This document shows, piece by piece, positions 932-22,163 of a stretch of DNA of 29,670 nucleotides. The DNA is from a virus, in the IMG/VR virus record IMGVR_UViG_3300031245_000006, positions 1 through 29,670 of that record; one strand, 5' to 3'. The notes under the pieces are model-generated. The model was not told the DNA's origin and searched no databases. It worked only from the letters and a program-made list of their open reading frames with translations. Numbering within the stretch: the stretch's first letter is position 1; each line of letters opens with the position of its first letter. The translations under genes were made by a program, and so were the position numbers.

Positions 932-3838
932 ATGTCTATATCAATTGCAGATTACCTCGACTTGCTCTACGGCGACGATACCGCCGCATATACGACCGTC
1001 AGCGTCAAACTGACCGACGGTCGCTTCAAATGTCAGACATTCAGCCTCTCGCAGCGCGCCGAAATCGTCAAGTATATCGAGAAACACCTCGTATACGACA
1101 TCTACATCAAGCGCGCGTCGCAAAAAAGAATCCCAGACCCCGGATCGTCCGGCAGCGCCAAACTTGCACACCTCCAGCGCGTCATCACCGCGGATATTGA
1201 CATCCAATCCGCTGCGCACGCGAAGGATACGCTCCCCGCGTCGAAAGACGACGCGCTCCGGCTGCTGGGGGAGAGCGGCTTGCCGGAACCAACGCTGATC
1301 GTCCACACCGGCAACGGGCTGATGCCGGTCTGGGCGCTGCGCGAACCGCAGAAAGCGGACGACGTTGCGCCGGTGCAAGCGGGCGTCGAGGCGCAACTGC
1401 GCATCACCGCCGCGCGCTACGGCTGGGCGCTCGACAACACCGGCGACGCCGCGCGGTCGATTCGCGTCGTTGGATCGTACAACTGGAAGCAACGACCGCA
1501 GAAGAAGCCCGTCACCGTCATCCGCAACAGCGACCGCTACTACGACCTGAACGACTTCGCCCAGTTCGCGCGCAAGCCGTTGCTCGCGCCGAAGCGCGTC
1601 GGCGGCGCGGCGACGCGGGAAACGATTGAGACGTTGCTGCGCTACATCCCCGGCGACGGACTTGAGTACAATATGTGGCTTGCGGCGGTGTGGGCGATCC
1701 AGTCCGCGCTGCCGGAAGACGTGGCGGCGGAGGTGCTGGACAACTGGACATACGACTGGGAGAAGCACCGGAAGCCCGATCACGTCGAGAGCGGGATCGG
1801 CGTCTTGGTCAACCTCGCACGAAAGTACGGTTTTGAGGGTACAGTGCCGGGTCTGCGCGGCGGGTACGTCGTATCGCCGGAACTGCCCGACGCGATGCGT
1901 ATCAACCAGCGCTATCTGGATATTGAGATCGACCCGGATGACAACTACCCGAATATCGTTGTCATCCGGTCGGCAAAAGGCACCGGTAAAACGCAGTGGC
2001 TGGCGGAGGCGGCGACGTGCTACCGGCGCGTGCTGTCGGTGGGGCACCGCGTCTCGCTGGTGCGCCAGAGCGCGGCACGGCTGAATCTTACCCCGTATTA
2101 CGAAGACGGGAAGTGGATCACGAACGCCCCGCGTGTTGCTACCACCATCCACAGTCTCGACAAAATCGAGACAGACACGCCGTATGATCTTGTGATCGTT
2201 GACGAGATCGAACAAGTGTTGAAAGCGATTGTCAACGACCGCAATCTGAAAAGCCGCAAGGTATCGGCTGTCGGCGCGTTGATGGAGCATCTCCGCAAAG
2301 CGCGTTTGATTATTCTCGCCGACGCCGACGTGGGCGAAGCGACGCTGACGTTCATTCAGTCTGCGTTTCCCGACCAGCCGATAGCCTACGTCGAAAACGA
2401 GTACGCACACCGCGCAATCGATCATCTCGTACTGCTGCCGACGCCGGAAGACGTTCTCCAGAAATCGCTGGAGTGGTACGACCCCAACGAGTGTAAAATC
2501 GCGCTTGCGTGCAACACCCGCGCCGACGCCGACCGCGCGGAGTTGTTCTACCGCCAGTACGCGCCGGGCGCGCGGATACTGAAGATCACAGCAGAAACGA
2601 GCGACAACAACAACGAGACGCTTGAGCGTATCAACGATATTCTACGAGACATTGATATTTTCATCTACTCCCCGTCAGTTGGAACGGGCGTGTCGATCGA
2701 CATTGAAGGATTCGCACTGTTCGGCATCGCCCGCAACGGCGTCGGCGTCGGCGACGTTGACGACTTCCGCCAGCAGTTGGGGCGTATTCGCAACCCGCTT
2801 GAGCGCGAGATCAACGTGTACGTTGAGACCAAGCGAATGAACGAACCGACCTCGCCCGAAGCGTACCGCGATCTCGCCAAACTGCGCGAACTGGAAGATG
2901 ACTTCCGCATTTCGCGCGCGAACGGCGCGCCGGAACCGGCGACGGAGTGGGATCGCGTGTACCTCGATCTCTACTGCGTCGTCAAAGCGAAGACCGCGGC
3001 GCAGAAGAACGCATTTTTTGATAACTTCGTCGGCGCGTATGCGGCTGAAGGCGTTGAAGTCTGGGATGACCGCGACAAGCCGCATCTGCCGACCGACCGA
3101 CGCCGCGAACTGGCGAAGTCGTTGCGCGAACAGCGCGAAGCGCAAGAGCGCGCCCGCGCCGAGCGCATCGCTAACGCGCCCGCGCCGGATGACGCGCAGA
3201 CGGAAGAGCAAAAGCGCGACGCAGAGCGGAAGGTCGAGTTAGAAGAGCGCTACGGCATCGACGTTGACGCCGACCTCGTACTCGACGACGAGCGCGGCGC
3301 ATACGGGCAGGCGCAGCGCTTCGCGGCGGTTGAGGACGCAGAGATAGCGAAGGCGCTGGACGAGATGGAGACGACGCGGCGCTTCAGTGCAGACCGCAAC
3401 CGGTTCGCATTGTTCGCGATCTGGTTCAATATGTTGATTACGGCGCTGCGATTGCGGATCGAAGAGGGTGCAGAAATTGCAATCACCGAAGAGTTTGTTG
3501 ACCTCGTTGACCGGAACCGATTATTGATCCAGGCGGCGCTGGGGATCAAGGTGCGCGAAGATTTCCGCCGAAAGCCGATGTCGTTTATCGGCGCGCTCTT
3601 CGCCCGCATCGGCGTCGGTATCGAAGGGAAGCAACAGCGCACAGACGGCGGGAAGCGGGTGCGCGTCTACCGGCTGGTGGGCGTCGAACGGGCGCGACTA
3701 CGCACCACCGGCATCCGCAAGCGGCACGCAGACCGCACCGCGCCGGTGTACGAGTTTTTCGGAACTGCTGTCACAACACATCATAGAAATAAAAGAAAGA
3801 CTGCTGTTGTGACATCTGCTGCTACTGCTGTACACTAG
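932..3838 (+). CDS. Bifunctional primase/helicase, AEP primase plus CyRepA/origin-binding-type helicase
   Basis: A 968-residue replication protein. The N-terminal third fits an archaeo-eukaryotic primase-like domain: TADIDIQ (86-92), HTGNGLMPVW (125-134), and RSIRVVGSYNWKQ (175-187), which matches the R-x-(P/V)-G-s-x-N-x-K pattern of that superfamily. A superfamily 2-type helicase follows. It has Walker A GTGKT (350-354), Walker B with DEIE (424-427) preceded by VATTIHSL, and the motif SPSVGTGVSI near 580, as in herpes UL9-like origin-binding and CyRepA proteins. A long charged region (about 690-830) precedes a C-terminal segment of unknown role. The start has a purine-rich ribosome binding site, GGAGGGAGGAAGGGG. 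Residues 947-961, nearly the whole C-terminal tail, are encoded by a copy of the 45-bp palindromic element. It probably opens and drives phage replication together with the polymerase downstream. The exact primase activity is inferred from motifs. Confidence 0.85.
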   Translation: MSISIADYLDLLYGDDTAAYTTVSVKLTDGRFKCQTFSLSQRAEIVKYIEKHLVYDIYIKRASQKRIPDPGSSGSAKLAHLQRVITADIDIQSAAHAKDTLPASKDDALRLLGESGLPEPTLIVHTGNGLMPVWALREPQKADDVAPVQAGVEAQLRITAARYGWALDNTGDAARSIRVVGSYNWKQRPQKKPVTVIRNSDRYYDLNDFAQFARKPLLAPKRVGGAATRETIETLLRYIPGDGLEYNMWLAAVWAIQSALPEDVAAEVLDNWTYDWEKHRKPDHVESGIGVLVNLARKYGFEGTVPGLRGGYVVSPELPDAMRINQRYLDIEIDPDDNYPNIVVIRSAKGTGKTQWLAEAATCYRRVLSVGHRVSLVRQSAARLNLTPYYEDGKWITNAPRVATTIHSLDKIETDTPYDLVIVDEIEQVLKAIVNDRNLKSRKVSAVGALMEHLRKARLIILADADVGEATLTFIQSAFPDQPIAYVENEYAHRAIDHLVLLPTPEDVLQKSLEWYDPNECKIALACNTRADADRAELFYRQYAPGARILKITAETSDNNNETLERINDILRDIDIFIYSPSVGTGVSIDIEGFALFGIARNGVGVGDVDDFRQQLGRIRNPLEREINVYVETKRMNEPTSPEAYRDLAKLRELEDDFRISRANGAPEPATEWDRVYLDLYCVVKAKTAAQKNAFFDNFVGAYAAEGVEVWDDRDKPHLPTDRRRELAKSLREQREAQERARAERIANAPAPDDAQTEEQKRDAERKVELEERYGIDVDADLVLDDERGAYGQAQRFAAVEDAEIAKALDEMETTRRFSADRNRFALFAIWFNMLITALRLRIEEGAEIAITEEFVDLVDRNRLLIQAALGIKVREDFRRKPMSFIGALFARIGVGIEGKQQRTDGGKRVRVYRLVGVERARLRTTGIRKRHADRTAPVYEFFGTAVTTHHRNKRKTAVVTSAATAVH
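3769..3813 (+). repeat. 45-bp palindromic element, copy 1 (coding)
   Basis: TGTCACAACA and TGTTGTGAC ends enclose an AT-rich core with the sequence AGAAATAAAAG. It lies in frame in the 3' end of the primase/helicase gene and encodes VTTHHRNKRKTAVVT. GAACTGCTG upstream and ATCTGCTGCT downstream extend the palindromic character. Confidence 0.9.
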
Positions 3839-8442: not shown

Positions 8443-8800
8443 CGCTGAAGAGCGCTTTGTGCGCCGGTACGCGCATCTGGCAGCCGATGCGCCGCTCGAC
8501 CGCCACGCGGCGCGGGCGCTGCTGCGGCGCGCGTTGGCGGATCGGGAGGCGCTGGCGGAATATCTGCTCGAACACGAGTGCGCACCGTCGTTGCTCGGCG
8601 AGTTCATCTATCGTCATTGGAACGACGCGCTGAGCGATGCGGCGCGCGGCGCGTCGTTGTGTCTGGCGTCGCGGACGCTGCGGGCGCTGGATTGTCTTGA
8701 GGAACGCGACCGGTGGGCAGTGCTGGAGTGGATGCAGCGTGGGGTTGTTCCGTCAACGCGCATTCTGTGTCGGTTGTGTGAGGAGATCGACGATGCGTGA
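8435..8800 (+). CDS. Helical protein of unknown function, first of a tandem pair, 121 aa
   Basis: Not recognised. Starts at ATG 8435 after GGAGCGGAAGG, overlapping the nuclease by 8 bases. The protein is almost entirely predicted helical, alanine-, arginine- and leucine-rich. It resembles its neighbour at 8793: the segment LDRHAARALLRRALADREALAEYLL followed by EHECAPSLLGEFIYRHW aligns well with the corresponding segment there (LDETRLLRWTRHKL, then GYRPTFIRYFLRYHI). The pair most likely arose by tandem duplication. A nucleic-acid or replication-complex accessory role is possible from context only. Confidence 0.65.
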   Translation: MNDAEERFVRRYAHLAADAPLDRHAARALLRRALADREALAEYLLEHECAPSLLGEFIYRHWNDALSDAARGASLCLASRTLRALDCLEERDRWAVLEWMQRGVVPSTRILCRLCEEIDDA

Positions 8801-9248
8801 CGACGATCTGCGCGCCGCGATGTCGTTCTTCGCAGCGCGACTGCGCGGCGCGGAATTAGACGAGACGCGACTGCTGCGTTGGACGCGCCACAAACTGCGC
8901 AGCGACGCGCAGGCGGTCGCAGAACTGATGCTGACGGTCGGGTATCGTCCGACGTTCATCAGATACTTTCTGCGCTACCACATCCCGGCGCTCCGCGAGA
9001 GCGCGGCGGTCGGGGAAACGTACATCGATCCCGACGCGGCGGCTGAAGCGCATCTGGGGTTGTGCTGGCGTTTGGATGATGCTGTGCTAACCGTCGTTTC
9101 TGACCTCCACTCCGCCGCGAAGCGGCTGCGCCAGCCGTACCGCGATCTCGCGGCGGTCTGCCTACGGTGGGGGTACGTTCACGAGACGGTGGTGCAGATG
9201 TTGGCAAAAGTACTAGAAAGGAAACCGCAAAATGTGGTGGAAGATTGA
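8793..9248 (+). CDS. Helical protein of unknown function, second of the tandem pair, 151 aa
   Basis: Not recognised. Start ATG 8793 overlaps the previous gene by 8 bases; GAGGAG is just upstream. Residues about 4-58 align by eye with the previous protein (matching hydrophobic and arginine positions, then the F-I-x-R-Y-x-x-R-Y/H-H/W pattern). The C-terminal half (LHSAAKRLRQPYRDLAAVCLRWGYVHETVVQML) is an additional, helix-turn-helix-like stretch: a helix, the turn RWGY, then another helix. DNA binding is thus conceivable but not demonstrated. Confidence 0.65.
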   Translation: MRDDDLRAAMSFFAARLRGAELDETRLLRWTRHKLRSDAQAVAELMLTVGYRPTFIRYFLRYHIPALRESAAVGETYIDPDAAAEAHLGLCWRLDDAVLTVVSDLHSAAKRLRQPYRDLAAVCLRWGYVHETVVQMLAKVLERKPQNVVED

Positions 9249-9471: not shown

Positions 9472-10105
9472 CCTCATTGCGTGGATTATCGCGGCGGGGG
9501 TGATCTTCGCCCTTGTCAACAGCAACGTCGCCGACGGACTGCTGAGCGCGCTTGACCTCAGCGACAATCTCAAGCGTGCGGTGGACTGGGCGCGCGGGGT
9601 GCGCGGGGTTCCGGCGGGCGTGGCGTCGGTCTGTTTCTTCATTCTCGCGTATGTGTTCGGAGCACTGGCGTACCGCTACGACCTCGTACCGACGTGGCGG
9701 TTCATCCAGCCGATTGCGGCGGACGTACTGGCGACGGGCGCGGAGTGGTTGACGCTATTTGCGCTGTTCCTCACGCTGCTGCCGACGCTGATTGAGTTGG
9801 CAACGGTCGGACTGGTGCAGCGCGACATTCGGGCGCTCCAGTGGATGGTGTACTTCTTCATCTTTTTTGATATTGTCACCGACTTCGGAGAAGCGGTCGC
9901 GTTGGTGGAGGTATGGCAGCGCGGCGGACTGTTTGCGCCGCTGCCGGACGCGCTGCAAGGCGCGGCGGTGGTGATGGCAAAAATCGGCTGGACGTTTGCG
10001 GCGTCGTTCGCGTTTGAGTTCCTCGCCATTCTGTGCGCAGTAACGGCGCTGCTGTTGGCAGCGAATGTCAGAGCGCCCGGCGGAGGAGGAGGAGGCGGAC
10101 GGTGA
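9464..10105 (+). CDS. Multi-pass membrane protein paired with the FtsK-like ATPase, 213 aa
   Basis: Hydrophobic segments are seen at about 5-20 (IAWIIAAGVIFALV), 51-70 (VASVCFFILAYVFGALAY), 80-110 (a long stretch including LTLFALFLTLLPTLIELA), 125-140 (WMVYFFIFFDIVTDF) and 175-205 (FAASFAFEFLAILCAVTALLL), so about five membrane spans. It ends with a run of glycines. ATG 9464 overlaps the previous gene by 8 bases, and its stop overlaps the GTG of the FtsK-like gene (GTGA), so the two are probably made together and may form a membrane complex. I do not recognise the family. A holin role is unlikely given its position and size. Confidence 0.75.
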   Translation: MSDLIAWIIAAGVIFALVNSNVADGLLSALDLSDNLKRAVDWARGVRGVPAGVASVCFFILAYVFGALAYRYDLVPTWRFIQPIAADVLATGAEWLTLFALFLTLLPTLIELATVGLVQRDIRALQWMVYFFIFFDIVTDFGEAVALVEVWQRGGLFAPLPDALQGAAVVMAKIGWTFAASFAFEFLAILCAVTALLLAANVRAPGGGGGGGR

Positions 10106-11661
10106 ACGTCAGCGGCAAAACGGTGTTTCTAATGCTGTTCGGCGTCGCGCTGGCGTTCAGCGTTGATCCGATTGCCGGCGTCTTCGCGTTCCTCGCGCTG
10201 GCGGCGGCGACCAACCGCGACGCGGCGGCGCGTGTTTACCACGCGCTGAACGACGCCGCGTATCGGGTCGAGCGGCAACTCGAACAGCGCGGCTGGCTGC
10301 CGACGGCGCTCGCCGGAAGTGTCACAACACCGCGTATAAATAAAGAAGAAGATACTGTTGTGACGGTTGATGAGCAAGCGCCCGCCGGTGCGGGCGCGGG
10401 CGTCGCAGCCCCCGCTGCCGCAGCCCCCGCTGCTGTCACAACACCGTATAGAAATAAAAGAGAAGATGATGTTGTGACGCTTCCTTCTCCGTCGCTGTTC
10501 AACCCGACCGACCCGCGCCCGGCGCGGTACGCCGTCCCGCTGGGTGTTGACCAGACCGGCGCGTTTCGTTGGTTGGACTTCGGCGCAGACGCGCTGCATA
10601 TTGGGCTGTACGGAACCAGCGGCTGCGGCAAAGACCACCTTCTGCGGCTGTGGTTCGCGACGCTGCTCAACGAGCGCGGGGTTCGCTGGGCGATCCTCGA
10701 CGGGAAAGGGGACTGGCTGACGCCGAACATCGCGCGGCTGCCGCAGATGCTGTTCCCTCCCGCCGGAGGGTACGGCGAGGAAGGACAACAGCGAATACTG
10801 AGCGCGATTGCGACAATCAACGAAGAAGCAAAGCGTCGGTTCGGGCTGCTGCTGAGCGCCGGAGTGCGCAGCGTCGAGGAGTACAACCAAACCGCGCCCG
10901 ATCCGCTGCCGCTGCTCGTTGTGTTGGCGACGGACATCATCGACGTTGTGGACGAGACGGAACGACTGCTGATCGCGCTCGTCAGCAAGGCGCGGGCGTT
11001 GGGGATTAGGGTGATCGTCTCGATGCAGACGCCGACCGGCAAGCGGCTTGAGTGGCGGATGAACCTCTCGACGCTGATCGCCGGCGCGCTGGTGGACGGA
11101 AGCCAGGACGCGCCCGCGCTGGGCGTGCGCGACCCGAAGGCGCTGCTGTACCGACCGTCGCAGTTGCCGCCGCCGCCCGGCGAGCGCGGGGTGTTTGTGG
11201 TGCGTCACAACAACGAACAATTCCTCATCCGCACGCCGGCGCTGGTCGGGGATTTTGATGCGCTCGTCAACGCGCGCAACGACGCGGCGCTGTTGGAGAC
11301 GTTGTTGTTCAGCGCTGTCACAACACCGCGTATAAATAAAAGAGAAGCAGATGTTGCGACAACTGATGCGCAGATGCCCGTCCCGGCGCATCAGCAAGCG
11401 CTGGGACAGCGGGGACGGGCGGATACGGCATCAGAACGCGCTGGGACGGCTGTTGTCCCGTCCCCGACCGTCCCCGAACCCGCCAAAAACGCCCAGATCG
11501 GGGGTTTCCTCGGGGACGGGGACGGCGGGGACGATGCGTTGTTATCAGCGCTGGCGGCGCTTCGACGCGCGGGGTTCAGTCGAGAGCAGGCGCGGGCGTT
11601 GGGCGCGCGGTTTCGCAACGAAGACTGGGCGCGCGCGGCGCGGTTGAATAGCGAGGATTGA
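10102..11661 (+). CDS. Membrane-anchored FtsK/HerA-like ATPase with three in-frame palindromic elements, 519 aa
   Basis: Residues about 6-35 are two hydrophobic segments, then a linker, then a RecA-like ATPase core (about 135-385). Walker A is GTSGCGKD (171-178). The strand LLVVLATDII with D278 sits where FtsK has its Walker B D-E, and VSMQTPTGKRLEWRMNLSTLIAGALVDGSQDAPALG matches the late FtsK-like region. K is followed by D instead of S/T, and the Walker B Glu is not evident, so ATP hydrolysis may be altered. A 45-bp palindromic element supplies residues 74-88, 112-126 and 406-420, all outside the ATPase core. The C-terminal 60 residues look like a small helical DNA-reading domain (DALLSALAALRRAGFSREQARAL). 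GTG 10102 overlaps the upstream stop. DNA translocation or segregation is the likely role, by family. Confidence 0.75.
   Translation: MNVSGKTVFLMLFGVALAFSVDPIAGVFAFLALAAATNRDAAARVYHALNDAAYRVERQLEQRGWLPTALAGSVTTPRINKEEDTVVTVDEQAPAGAGAGVAAPAAAAPAAVTTPYRNKREDDVVTLPSPSLFNPTDPRPARYAVPLGVDQTGAFRWLDFGADALHIGLYGTSGCGKDHLLRLWFATLLNERGVRWAILDGKGDWLTPNIARLPQMLFPPAGGYGEEGQQRILSAIATINEEAKRRFGLLLSAGVRSVEEYNQTAPDPLPLLVVLATDIIDVVDETERLLIALVSKARALGIRVIVSMQTPTGKRLEWRMNLSTLIAGALVDGSQDAPALGVRDPKALLYRPSQLPPPPGERGVFVVRHNNEQFLIRTPALVGDFDALVNARNDAALLETLLFSAVTTPRINKREADVATTDAQMPVPAHQQALGQRGRADTASERAGTAVVPSPTVPEPAKNAQIGGFLGDGDGGDDALLSALAALRRAGFSREQARALGARFRNEDWARAARLNSED
10320..10364 (+). repeat. 45-bp palindromic element, copy 2 (coding)
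   Basis: Perfect TGTCACAACA/TGTTGTGAC ends around a core with ATAAATAAAGAAG. In frame in the FtsK-like gene, encoding VTTPRINKEEDTVVT in the linker between membrane segments and ATPase core. Confidence 0.92.
10434..10478 (+). repeat. 45-bp palindromic element, copy 3 (coding)
   Basis: Perfect ends, core with AGAAATAAAAGAG. Encodes VTTPYRNKREDDVVT in the same frame and orientation as copy 2. An Ala/Pro/Gly-rich linker of 23 residues separates the two copies. Confidence 0.92.
11316..11360 (+). repeat. 45-bp palindromic element, copy 4 (coding, slightly degenerate)
   Basis: Left end TGTCACAACA, right end TGTTGCGAC with one change. Encodes VTTPRINKREADVAT, residues 406-420 of the FtsK-like protein, between the ATPase core and the C-terminal domain. 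Length is still exactly 45 bases. Confidence 0.88.
11363..11540 (+). repeat. GGGGACGG-rich low-complexity coding segment
   Basis: Within the 3' part of the FtsK-like gene, GGGAC/GTCCC motifs occur many times on both strands, and two imperfect direct copies of GCATCAG...GCTGGGAC (11388-11410 and 11428-11450) are present. CTGATGCGC and GCGCATCAG (11363-11371, 11386-11394) are inverted. It encodes a Pro/Ala/Gly-rich linker. Confidence 0.6.
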
Positions 11662-12414: not shown

Positions 12415-12459
12415 TGTCACAACACGCTATAGAAATAAAAGAAGAAGAGATGTTGTGAC
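12415..12459 (+). repeat. 45-bp palindromic element, copy 5 (intergenic)
   Basis: Perfect ends, core CTATAGAAATAAAAGAAG. It fills most of the gap between the PP-loop gene and the membrane protein gene, and the ribosome binding site GAAGGAGA follows 2 bases after it. Confidence 0.92.
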
Positions 12460-12477: not shown

Positions 12478-13155
12478 GTGAAGTTCCGCATTCTCGCAAC
12501 GCTATCGGTTCTGTTGCTCAGCGCCCCGTCCGCGCTGGGCGTCCAGCGCGCCCTCGCCCCGACGCGCGGCGAGTTGGCGGGCTGGCTGGCGGCGGTGGGG
12601 ATCGAGTTGGCGTATCTGTCGCTGGCGTTCGCGGCGTTCGCCGATCCGCAGCGCCAACGGTTGGCGGCGCGCGTGGCGCGGGCGGCGGTGCTCACTGCGA
12701 TTACGCTCAACGTTCTGGCAGACTACGCCGCGCGCGTTCCGGCGGGGCTGAGCGGCGCGGCGCAGTTTCTTGCGTCGTTCGATTGGTTATTGCTGGCGCT
12801 GTCGGTGCTGGAGAGCGCGCCGCTTGCGACGCTGGCGTATACGCTTGCGACGTTGCTGCATACGCACAGCAGTTCGCATCCGCAACCGGATGCGTCGCAT
12901 ACGGCGCAGCATACGGCGCATACGGATACGCATACGGCGCAGCATACGGCGCATACGGATACGCATACGGCGCAGCATACGGCGCATACGGATACGCATA
13001 CGGCGCAGCATACGGCGCATACGGATACGCATACGGCGCATACGCAGCGCACTGCGTCGTACCGGTGCCCGCACTGCGGTGCGGCGCTGGCGAAGCAGCA
13101 GCAGTACGCGGCTGCGCTGCGGTACGGACATTGCGGGAAGTGTAAGGGAAAATAA
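12478..13155 (+). CDS. Membrane protein with 11-residue His/Thr tandem repeat and C-terminal zinc ribbon, 225 aa
   Basis: GTG 12478 follows GAAGGAGA; the upstream ATG 12469 is stopped after three codons. Hydrophobic segments at about 3-20, 35-60, 65-85 and 98-125 suggest four membrane spans. Residues 141-184 are four identical copies of HTAQHTAHTDT, followed by a partial copy. The C-terminus is CPHC...HCGKC, a CxxC/CxxC zinc ribbon. The histidine-dense repeat may bind metal ions or be a flexible spacer on one side of the membrane. The gene ends the early operon at a bidirectional terminator. Family unknown; a metal-sensing or membrane-anchor role is speculation. Confidence 0.75.
   Translation: MKFRILATLSVLLLSAPSALGVQRALAPTRGELAGWLAAVGIELAYLSLAFAAFADPQRQRLAARVARAAVLTAITLNVLADYAARVPAGLSGAAQFLASFDWLLLALSVLESAPLATLAYTLATLLHTHSSSHPQPDASHTAQHTAHTDTHTAQHTAHTDTHTAQHTAHTDTHTAQHTAHTDTHTAHTQRTASYRCPHCGAALAKQQQYAAALRYGHCGKCKGK
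12898..13029 (+). repeat. Perfect 33-bp tandem repeat, 4 copies
   Basis: Four identical 33-bp units run without interruption, followed by a partial unit. They encode HTAQHTAHTDT four times. Identity at the DNA level, including third positions, indicates recent expansion by slippage or unequal recombination. Repeat copies are joined without spacers, so this is not a CRISPR array. Confidence 0.95.
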
Positions 13156-13203: not shown

Positions 13204-13491
13204 CTACTGAATGACGCCCGCCTTGCGGAGGATGAATGCGTAGTCTTTGGCTGCGGCTTCGAGATCGGGATACTCGAAGATTTCGGCTTCGCAGTAGTGT
13301 CCTTCCCGCTTGACGTAGAAGATAACAATGCCTTCATCCCACTGAATGATACGGTACTGAATGTCCGCTTCCTCGTTCTCAAACCGAACCTCGCCGATTT
13401 CCTCCGCGTCCTCGTAGGTGACGGTCTCGTAATCGTTCTCTTCGTCCCAGTTCCAGTGCCGGTAGCCACGCCAAATGCTGATGGTTGCCAT
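13204..13491 (-). CDS. Small protein of the paralogue family, 95 aa
   Basis: Function unknown. Starts at ATG 13491 after AAAGGAAGG; longer upstream reading would cross its own promoter. It begins MATISIWRGYRHW, closely matching MATVQLWRGVRR of the divergent gene at 13669 and YKIWQGERT of 15375-15680. A middle hydrophobic strand (EGIVIFYVKREG) and a C-terminal acidic helix ending in AGVIQ follow the same plan. It is strongly acidic. It is a single-gene unit with private promoter (13537-13565) and terminator. The fold is probably a small alpha/beta sandwich; no catalytic motif is seen. Confidence 0.85.
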   Translation of the reverse strand: MATISIWRGYRHWNWDEENDYETVTYEDAEEIGEVRFENEEADIQYRIIQWDEGIVIFYVKREGHYCEAEIFEYPDLEAAAKDYAFILRKAGVIQ

Positions 13492-13668: not shown

Positions 13669-13989
13669 ATGGCTACGGTTCAACTCTGGCGGGGTGTCCG
13701 GCGCGTCGTACTTGGTGATGAGTTCGCGAGCGGGGAGATTGTCGAATTTGACGGTGAGCGCATCGGCGGGTTGTGGGAGGAGCACAACTCACGCGGTACG
13801 GAGACGGGCTTCTACCGCGCGTCTGACGGTCGATTTATTGTTCATCAACGGCGATGGAGCCGCTGGGAGAACGAGCCGGAAATCTCGGAGGTCTTTGTCT
13901 TCCCCACTCCGGCTGATGCAGAGGGGCGGTTCTGGTGGGAACTTGAGCAGGCGGGTCTCATCCCGCCGCGCACGGTGACGCTGGGTTGA
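13669..13989 (+). CDS. Small protein of the paralogue family, 106 aa
   Basis: Function unknown. ATG 13669 follows AGAGGAGG by about 7 bases. It begins MATVQLWRGVRRVVLGDEF, then GEIVEFDGERIGGLW, TGFYRASDGRFIVHQRRW, and a C-terminal helix after VFVFPTPADAEG. These blocks match the products at 13204-13491 and 15375-15680 and, more weakly, 3848-4126. A private promoter precedes it and a hairpin (13997-14034) follows. The repeated cassette structure suggests duplication and divergence, as expected for accessory phage genes acting on the host. No direct function is visible. Confidence 0.85.
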   Translation: MATVQLWRGVRRVVLGDEFASGEIVEFDGERIGGLWEEHNSRGTETGFYRASDGRFIVHQRRWSRWENEPEISEVFVFPTPADAEGRFWWELEQAGLIPPRTVTLG

Positions 13990-15189: not shown

Positions 15190-15210
15190 TCTCCAACGCA
15201 AGCGCCAGAG

Positions 15211-15242
15211 CCGCCGGACGCGCGTCCGGCGGTTTCTGTTTG
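15211..15242 (+). terminator. Rho-independent terminator after gene 14518-15189
   Basis: The perfect palindrome CCGCCGGACGC/GCGTCCGGCGG (15211-15232) is followed by TTTCTGTTTG. Confidence 0.8.
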
Positions 15243-15250
15243 TTCAGCAG

Positions 15251-15295
15251 TGTCACAACACCGTATAGAAATAAAAGAGAATGATGTGTTGTGAC
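15251..15295 (+). repeat. 45-bp palindromic element, copy 6 (intergenic)
   Basis: Perfect ends, core CGTATAGAAATAAAAGAG. TTCAGCAG lies directly upstream, as at copy 7. It is placed between two convergent terminators (15211-15242 and 15320-15354). Confidence 0.92.
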
Positions 15296-15319: not shown

Positions 15320-15354
15320 GGGAAAAGAAAACCCCGCGCTTGTGAGGCGCGGGG
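15320..15354 (-). terminator. Rho-independent terminator of gene 15375-15680
   Basis: Read leftward, CCCCGCGC/GCGCGGGG arms (15354-15347 and 15339-15332) are followed by TTTTCTTTTCC. Confidence 0.85.
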
Positions 15355-15374: not shown

Positions 15375-15680
15375 CTAGATGAGGCGCAGTTCCTCAAGAG
15401 CGTATCGCTGCTCGCTCTGCGCAGCTTCATCTAGGTTGCTGAATCGGTAGATTACGGCGCGGCTAGGTTCACCGAGGCTGTATTTTCGTTCCACAATATT
15501 GATCACGACCTCACCCTCGGATGTCTGATAAACGTAGTACGCTGTGCCGGAAAACCCGTCGGGGTTCACATCTTCAAACCAACCGAGTTCCTCGGCAACA
15601 ATCTCGACAACGGTGTACTTGCCGGCGTCGTCGCCGGGCAGAAATGTTCGCTCGCCTTGCCAAATCTTGTAGGTCTGCAT
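15375..15680 (-). CDS. Small protein of the paralogue family, 101 aa
   Basis: Function unknown. Starts at ATG 15680 with AGGAGG about 8 bases upstream. It begins MQTYKIWQGERTFLPGDD, then VVEIVAEELGWF, TAYYVYQTSEGEVVINIVERKY, and a C-terminal helix after VIYRFSNLDEAAQ. This is the same order of blocks as in 13204-13491 and 13669-13989. It is acidic and without cysteines. Its promoter and leader are near-copies of those of its relatives, so promoter and gene probably duplicated together. No catalytic residues stand out. Confidence 0.85.
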   Translation of the reverse strand: MQTYKIWQGERTFLPGDDAGKYTVVEIVAEELGWFEDVNPDGFSGTAYYVYQTSEGEVVINIVERKYSLGEPSRAVIYRFSNLDEAAQSEQRYALEELRLI

Positions 15681-16087: not shown

Positions 16088-16119
16088 CAGAAACCCCGTC
16101 GGCAACGGCGGGGTTTCTG
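16088..16119. terminator. Bidirectional Rho-independent terminator
   Basis: CAGAAACCCCG and CGGGGTTTCTG (16088-16098, 16109-16119) form an 11-bp perfect stem whose own arms supply short T-runs in both directions. Confidence 0.75.
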
Positions 16120-16131
16120 GTTGTTCAGCAG

Positions 16132-16176
16132 TGTCACAACACTCGATCTTCTTTTATTTATACGCAGTGTTGTGAC
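16132..16176 (-). repeat. 45-bp palindromic element, copy 7 (intergenic, reverse orientation)
   Basis: Perfect ends; the core reads TCTTCTTTTATTTATACGC, the reverse complement of the coding copies. TTCAGCAG lies directly upstream. Confidence 0.92.
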
Positions 16177-16234: not shown

Positions 16235-16278
16235 TGTCACAACACATCATCTTCTTTTATTATACGCAGTGTTGTGAC
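16235..16278 (-). repeat. Palindromic element, copy 8 (intergenic, reverse, 44 bp)
   Basis: Same ends and core as copy 7 with one T lost from the core (TTTTATTATACGC). ATCATCAGCAG lies directly upstream. It is the only copy whose length is not 45 bases. Confidence 0.9.
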
Positions 16279-21918: not shown

Positions 21919-21963
21919 TGTCACAACACTCTATAGAAATAAAAGAAGAACGGGTGTTGTGAC
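21919..21963 (+). repeat. 45-bp palindromic element, copy 9
   Basis: Perfect ends, core CTATAGAAATAAAAGAAG. It begins 10 bases after the capsid stop. ACTGCTGATGACC follows the right end. Confidence 0.92.
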
Positions 21964-22023
21964 ACTGCTGATGACCGGAAGGCGGGGAGTACTCCATTCG
22001 GGTTAGGCGACGGTCGGGCGGAC

Positions 22024-22068
22024 TGTCACAACACAGCATAGAAATAAAAGAAGATGCGGTGTTGTGAC
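22024..22068 (+). repeat. 45-bp palindromic element, copy 10
   Basis: Perfect ends, core GCATAGAAATAAAAGAAG; ACTGCTGATGACC follows the right end exactly as at copy 9. Confidence 0.92.
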
Positions 22069-22118
22069 ACTGCTGATGACCAGCCCGCGCCCGGCGCGGG
22101 CGTCACAACAGTCAAGGC

Positions 22119-22163
22119 TGTCACAACACTCTCTATAAATAAAGAAGAAGCAGGTGTTGTGAC
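22119..22163 (+). repeat. 45-bp palindromic element, copy 11
   Basis: Perfect ends, core CTCTATAAATAAAGAAGAAG. A half-element lies 8 bases upstream of its left end. Confidence 0.92.

Follow-up and report, generated by a model that had tools for sequence, protein, structure and literature searches.

The stoperators of the cluster A mycobacteriophages are the closest known case to the repeated element described here; their orientation follows transcription, and a site that has been reversed no longer represses (PMC6550527, PMC9283540). Stoperators and the element are alike in that many copies of one phage-specific asymmetric site lie mostly in short intergenic gaps (PMC6550527, PMC9283540), and in that orientation is tied to the direction of transcription (210 to 0 for the element in transcribed slots). 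By analogy the element may be functionally like the stoperators, but it differs from them in build: a stoperator is a 13 bp asymmetric site bound by a monomer, whereas the element is 44 bp long with two inverted 10 bp arms and an asymmetric core, and, unlike stoperators, it also occurs in frame in coding linkers. Nor was a repressor recognized here, whereas a stoperator is occupied by the immunity repressor of the phage and halts elongation. The Rickettsia palindromic elements, REP and MITE repeats are likewise short palindromic repeats found both between genes and in frame within them (PMC3733652), but they are regarded as mobile and reside in host chromosomes, whereas the element is fixed, undecayed and confined to phages. 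Dispersed centromeres (chromosomal parS; SopC/OB sites) resemble it in being short inverted repeats distributed across a replicon (PMC5016525), although no ParA/ParB-like gene was recognized here and the orientation of the element follows transcription. Finally, in chloroplast DNA small hairpin loops of up to ~50 bp are known to flip by mutation between short inverted repeats (8–18 bp in Juglans; PMC5492656). The core of the element flips in the same way; however, the chloroplast inversion is a mutational process only, whereas the flips seen here hit a conserved functional core, and their products are absent where the element is transcribed.

The element was studied in a window comprising a 29 670 nt stretch of viral DNA (IMG/VR record IMGVR_UViG_3300031245_000006), which contains 11 copies, seven intergenic and four inside genes (Table 1). 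It consists of a GTCACAACAC arm, a 24 bp core that is purine/AT-rich and asymmetric, and a GTGTTGTGAC arm, the two arms being inverted relative to one another. Half-sites GTCACAACA with no more than one mismatch number 28 in the window, compared with a mean of 4.7 and a maximum of 9 in 100 dinucleotide shuffles of it. Since seven of the 11 copies are intergenic, what repeats is DNA and not, for the most part, a peptide. The stretches between the capsid-gene elements (21964–22119, and in relatives) contain recurring GC-rich palindromes, for instance GCCCGCGCCCGGCGCGGGC, as well as the motif ACTGCTGATGA, which also recurs. The window also encodes a paralogous family of ~100-residue proteins (13207–13491, minus strand; 13669–13986, plus strand; 15378–15680, minus strand), several of which have a strong promoter of the TTGACA-17-TATA type and which differ in number, order and strand from one related phage to the next, and it contains a perfect 33 bp tandem repeat (12896–13040, 4.4 copies) inside the ORF at 12478–13155 that encodes repeated HTAQHTAHTDT peptides.

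Table 1. Coordinates of the elements and associated features in the window
Feature	Position	Strand	Remarks
Primase-helicase gene, one element	932..3838	+	Helicase part matches PF02399
Element, primase-helicase C-terminal tail	3770..3813	+	In frame
Candidate binder, small all-helical protein with two HTH-like motifs, 152 residues	8790..9248	+	In the element phages examined
FtsK/SpoIIIE-like ATPase gene, three elements	10102..11661	+	GTG start at 10102
Element, slot FtsK-1, before ATPase core	10321..10364	+	In frame as VTTPRINKEEDTVVT
Element, slot FtsK-2, before ATPase core	10435..10478	+	In frame as VTTPYRNKREDDVVT
Element, slot FtsK-3, after ATPase core	11317..11360	+	VTTPRINKREADVAT; one arm mismatch
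Intergenic element, 10 nt 3′ of PAPS-reductase-like gene	12416..12459	+	
Intrinsic-terminator-like hairpin upstream of 15252 element	15208..15235	+	
Intergenic element, in the gap between two convergent genes, with the terminator-like hairpin of each gene on either side	15252..15295	+	
Opposing intrinsic-terminator-like hairpin of convergent gene	15332..15354	-	
Terminator-like hairpin CAGAAACCCCGTC..GGCGGGGTTTCTG upstream of 16133 element	16088..16119	+	From sequence
Intergenic element, directly 3′ of terminator-like hairpin, upstream of late operon	16133..16176	-	
Intergenic element, upstream of late operon	16236..16278	-	43 bp
Intergenic element, first of three behind major capsid gene	21920..21963	+	
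Intergenic element, second behind major capsid gene	22025..22068	+	
Solo half-site GTCACAACA	22102..22110	+	18 bp upstream of full element
Intergenic element, third behind major capsid gene	22120..22163	+	

A scan of IMG/VR (89 stretches) and the retrieval of loci through three proteins yielded 323 distinct copies among related viral contigs, and the three longest relatives, searched whole, carry nine to ten elements each. The family, known only from metagenomes, has about ten copies per genome at fixed places: the primase tail, three in the FtsK-like gene, the 3′ side of the PAPS-reductase-like gene, the convergent gap (at 15.2 kb in the window), the region upstream of the late operon and the 3′ side of the capsid gene, the last with three to five copies, the number varying between phages. 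No empty site was found among the relatives compared, which argues against recent insertion. A host-borne element was considered and rejected: when 84 980 bacterial and archaeal species genomes were scanned for the arm pattern, 12 matches came back, roughly the number expected by chance, and every one lacks the A-rich core, so that the element with its core is absent from these genomes. When the capsid-gene cluster was compared by BLAST with 50 697 phage records, only weak and unrelated matches were returned; Rfam contains no match to the element, and searching the literature for the arm sequence gave chance hits only, the top ones being unrelated. Because both the cellular scan and the phage BLAST were negative, the element is, as far as tested, confined to one metagenomic phage group. 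We note that a different and larger contig of 52.7 kb (L039) has a single element (2014–2057) adjoining relatives of g14455 and of the small-protein family, possibly reflecting exchange between phage groups.

The copies are strongly conserved. Of 369 arm-pattern matches, 353 have at most two mismatches among the 20 arm positions, those with more being coreless; no decayed copies were seen, in that no core-bearing element has more than three arm mismatches. The length is 44 bp in 304 of the 323 copies, outside genes as well as within them. The conserved part of the core is TA[T/G]AAATAAAAGA, with its first four and last seven positions largely free, and this pattern is shared by coding and non-coding copies, apart from a relaxation of the innermost right-arm base that is found mainly in coding copies. 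Solo half-sites are also enriched (53 against ~6 expected), many of them ~20 bp from a full site. No clear helical phasing of neighbouring copies was apparent. In two contigs (L083, 2755–2776; L047, 3481–3502) the two arms are separated by only 4 bp (GTCACAACACTTCTGTTGTGAC), forming an element without its core.

Transcription units were predicted from gene order, terminator-like hairpins and consensus scans. In the transcribed slots (inside genes, behind the capsid gene and behind the PAPS-reductase-like gene) the purine-rich core lies on the sense strand in 210 of 210 copies, whereas in the boundary slots (the convergent gap and upstream of the late operon) orientation is mixed, with 49 plus and 42 minus; when only distinct sequences are counted the figures are 119 to 0 and 26 to 27, and as the phages are related, these are not counts of independent trials. 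Boundary copies mostly lie directly 3′ of a terminator-like hairpin (22 of 26 in the convergent gap, 34 of 63 upstream of the late operon), and in contig L046, which has small genes in a row, the order terminator, element, promoter, gene is repeated. In these boundary slots, cores have been reversed or replaced whole between near-identical flanks; for example, contigs L031 and L132 differ at two of 48 flanking positions and at 19 of 24 core positions, but at only two of 24 when one core is reversed. The products of core inversion are missing from the transcribed slots; their absence suggests that the direction relative to transcription is under selection. The PAPS-reductase-like gene has an element on both sides in one phage (L087, 4309–5155), and in another the gene is absent and a single element is left (L036, 7522–7565), as if the elements bounded its gain or loss.

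We propose tentatively, with slightly less than even confidence, that the element is a dispersed phage-specific DNA site, putatively protein-bound, that acts on transcription at the boundaries of units. That the site is needed in untranscribed gaps indicates that it acts as DNA, and a direction rule that holds only at places traversed by RNA polymerase suggests that transcription is affected directionally. A phage protein controlling transcription probably binds it; this binder would be phage-encoded, since no scanned cellular genome has the element, and would grip the two inverted arms, with the A-rich core giving direction. The bound element could then stop read-through in the manner of a roadblock or silencer, or work as an operator, with a directional effect on RNA polymerase that may parallel that of the L5 repressor at stoperators. 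Against this, the FtsK and primase genes would be odd places for a roadblock unless they are meant to be silenced. The product of 8790–9248 is one candidate for the binder; its HTH hit is weak and below cut-off (E=0.0028), its AlphaFold model is good and helical (pLDDT 81), and no fold match in the PDB or structural relative was found. A bolder version, which we consider rather unlikely, is that the elements are phage-wide fixed docking sites at which the direction of a flipped or exchanged core tells the phage protein which way to block or to pass RNA polymerase, the sites being written through protein linkers when they are needed inside genes.

Three other explanations have been weighed, each of which we regard as improbable. 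The first is a palindromic repeat (RPE/REP/MITE-like) that spreads within phage genomes, is tolerated in linkers and is homogenized by gene conversion. It would account for the copies in frame within protein linkers (three in FtsK and one in the primase), for the varying copy number in the capsid slot and for the swapping or reversal of whole cores between unchanged flanks, which shows exchange between copies, but it does not fit slots that are occupied in all relatives, with neither empty sites nor decayed copies; moreover, no target-site duplication is evident, no transposase was recognized among the window proteins scanned and the scanned cellular genomes lack the element.

A site for replication or segregation, either origin-like and bound by a replication protein or dispersed and centromere-like, is similarly doubtful. 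The phage-plasmid N15 has dispersed centromere-like sites of this kind. Here the inverted boxes flank an A+T-rich spacer, the presence of the element in untranscribed gaps suggests a role at the DNA level, and the helicase part of the primase matches both Herpes_ori_bp (PF02399, above cut-off) and RepA, the replication protein of phage phiHAP-1. However, about ten sites are spread over 30 kb, no ParA/ParB-type gene is present among the Pfam and PHROG matches of the window proteins scanned (several small proteins being without assignment), and the adherence of orientation to transcription is left unexplained.

The third, and to our minds no better placed, is an element of the mRNA, in which a hairpin with a purine-rich loop stabilizes or processes transcripts such as that of the capsid gene. 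The invariable sense orientation in transcribed slots, in non-coding copies too, and the three to five copies at the capsid 3′ end are as expected of it. The behaviour of the arms is not: among 61 pairs with a change, pairing on the sense strand is broken in 53, there are no double changes and no compensatory base changes in the arm stem were found. Arms that are nearly unchangeable, uncompensated and broken in pairing when they do vary are unlike an RNA stem, and copies are also kept in the gaps between terminators and promoters; Rfam, as noted above, offers no match. A longer inner stem was also considered, and was set aside because its covariation is weak (z of 2–3 at three positions) and insufficient.

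The copies inside genes were the starting point of the initial annotation, which placed the encoded peptides at residues 74–88, 112–126 and 406–420 of the FtsK-like protein and at 947–961 of the primase-helicase. These positions are exact, the former with the GTG start at 10102 and the latter being encoded by the copy at 3770–3813, although one changed arm base in the third FtsK copy (GTTGCGAC) gives V-A, not V-V. The FtsK motor domain is identified by its match to phrog_1358 (E=1e-17), PF01580 falling just below cut-off (23 against 24 bits), and the peptides do lie on both sides of the ATPase core (residues ~130–347 in the translation from 10105) and never inside it. The predicted FtsK structure is a poor model (mean pLDDT 37) in which the peptides are unstructured. 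In each of the 17 FtsK homologues the element occupies these three positions, within linkers whose length and sequence are otherwise variable and which lie on both sides of a strongly conserved ATPase core; each of the 14 primase homologues carries one in frame in its C-terminal tail. With every homologue occupied and no empty site, the element is a long-established, fixed feature, not one recently inserted. Occupancy of all homologues is also one of the two findings that the initial annotation had named as grounds for refutation. The earlier picture of copies in linkers or tails on both sides of the ATPase core stands, whereas insertion is doubtful and the suggestion that the peptide is a structural or interaction tag is not supported. 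At four-fold-degenerate third positions in the FtsK homologues, 12 of 12 in the arms are invariant as against 19 of 101 elsewhere (P=3e-8), showing that selection acts on the nucleic acid. That the peptide was selected as a protein tag, with the intergenic copies as relics, is thus very improbable: the coding copies are always 45 bp, in frame and in linkers, with V-T-T, K and V-T residues invariant, but most copies are non-coding yet equally conserved in arms, core and 44 bp length, and the arms are kept at synonymous sites. Evolution preserves the DNA site, not the peptide, and the peptides arise where three sites fall inside the FtsK-like gene. The peptide would be a by-product tolerated by flexible regions, both FtsK linkers and the primase tail being presumably flexible at these points.

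If the reading as a dispersed site acting on transcription is true, phages would have a second type of control site that is both dispersed and orientation-dependent, and neither the 50 697 sequenced phages searched here nor Rfam yielded its architecture. It would also show clearly how a DNA signal can overwrite the protein sequence of linkers, and would caution against taking every in-frame peptide repeat in a phage protein for a feature of the protein. The flips of the core between constant flanks amount to a natural experiment on the orientation allowed at each place.
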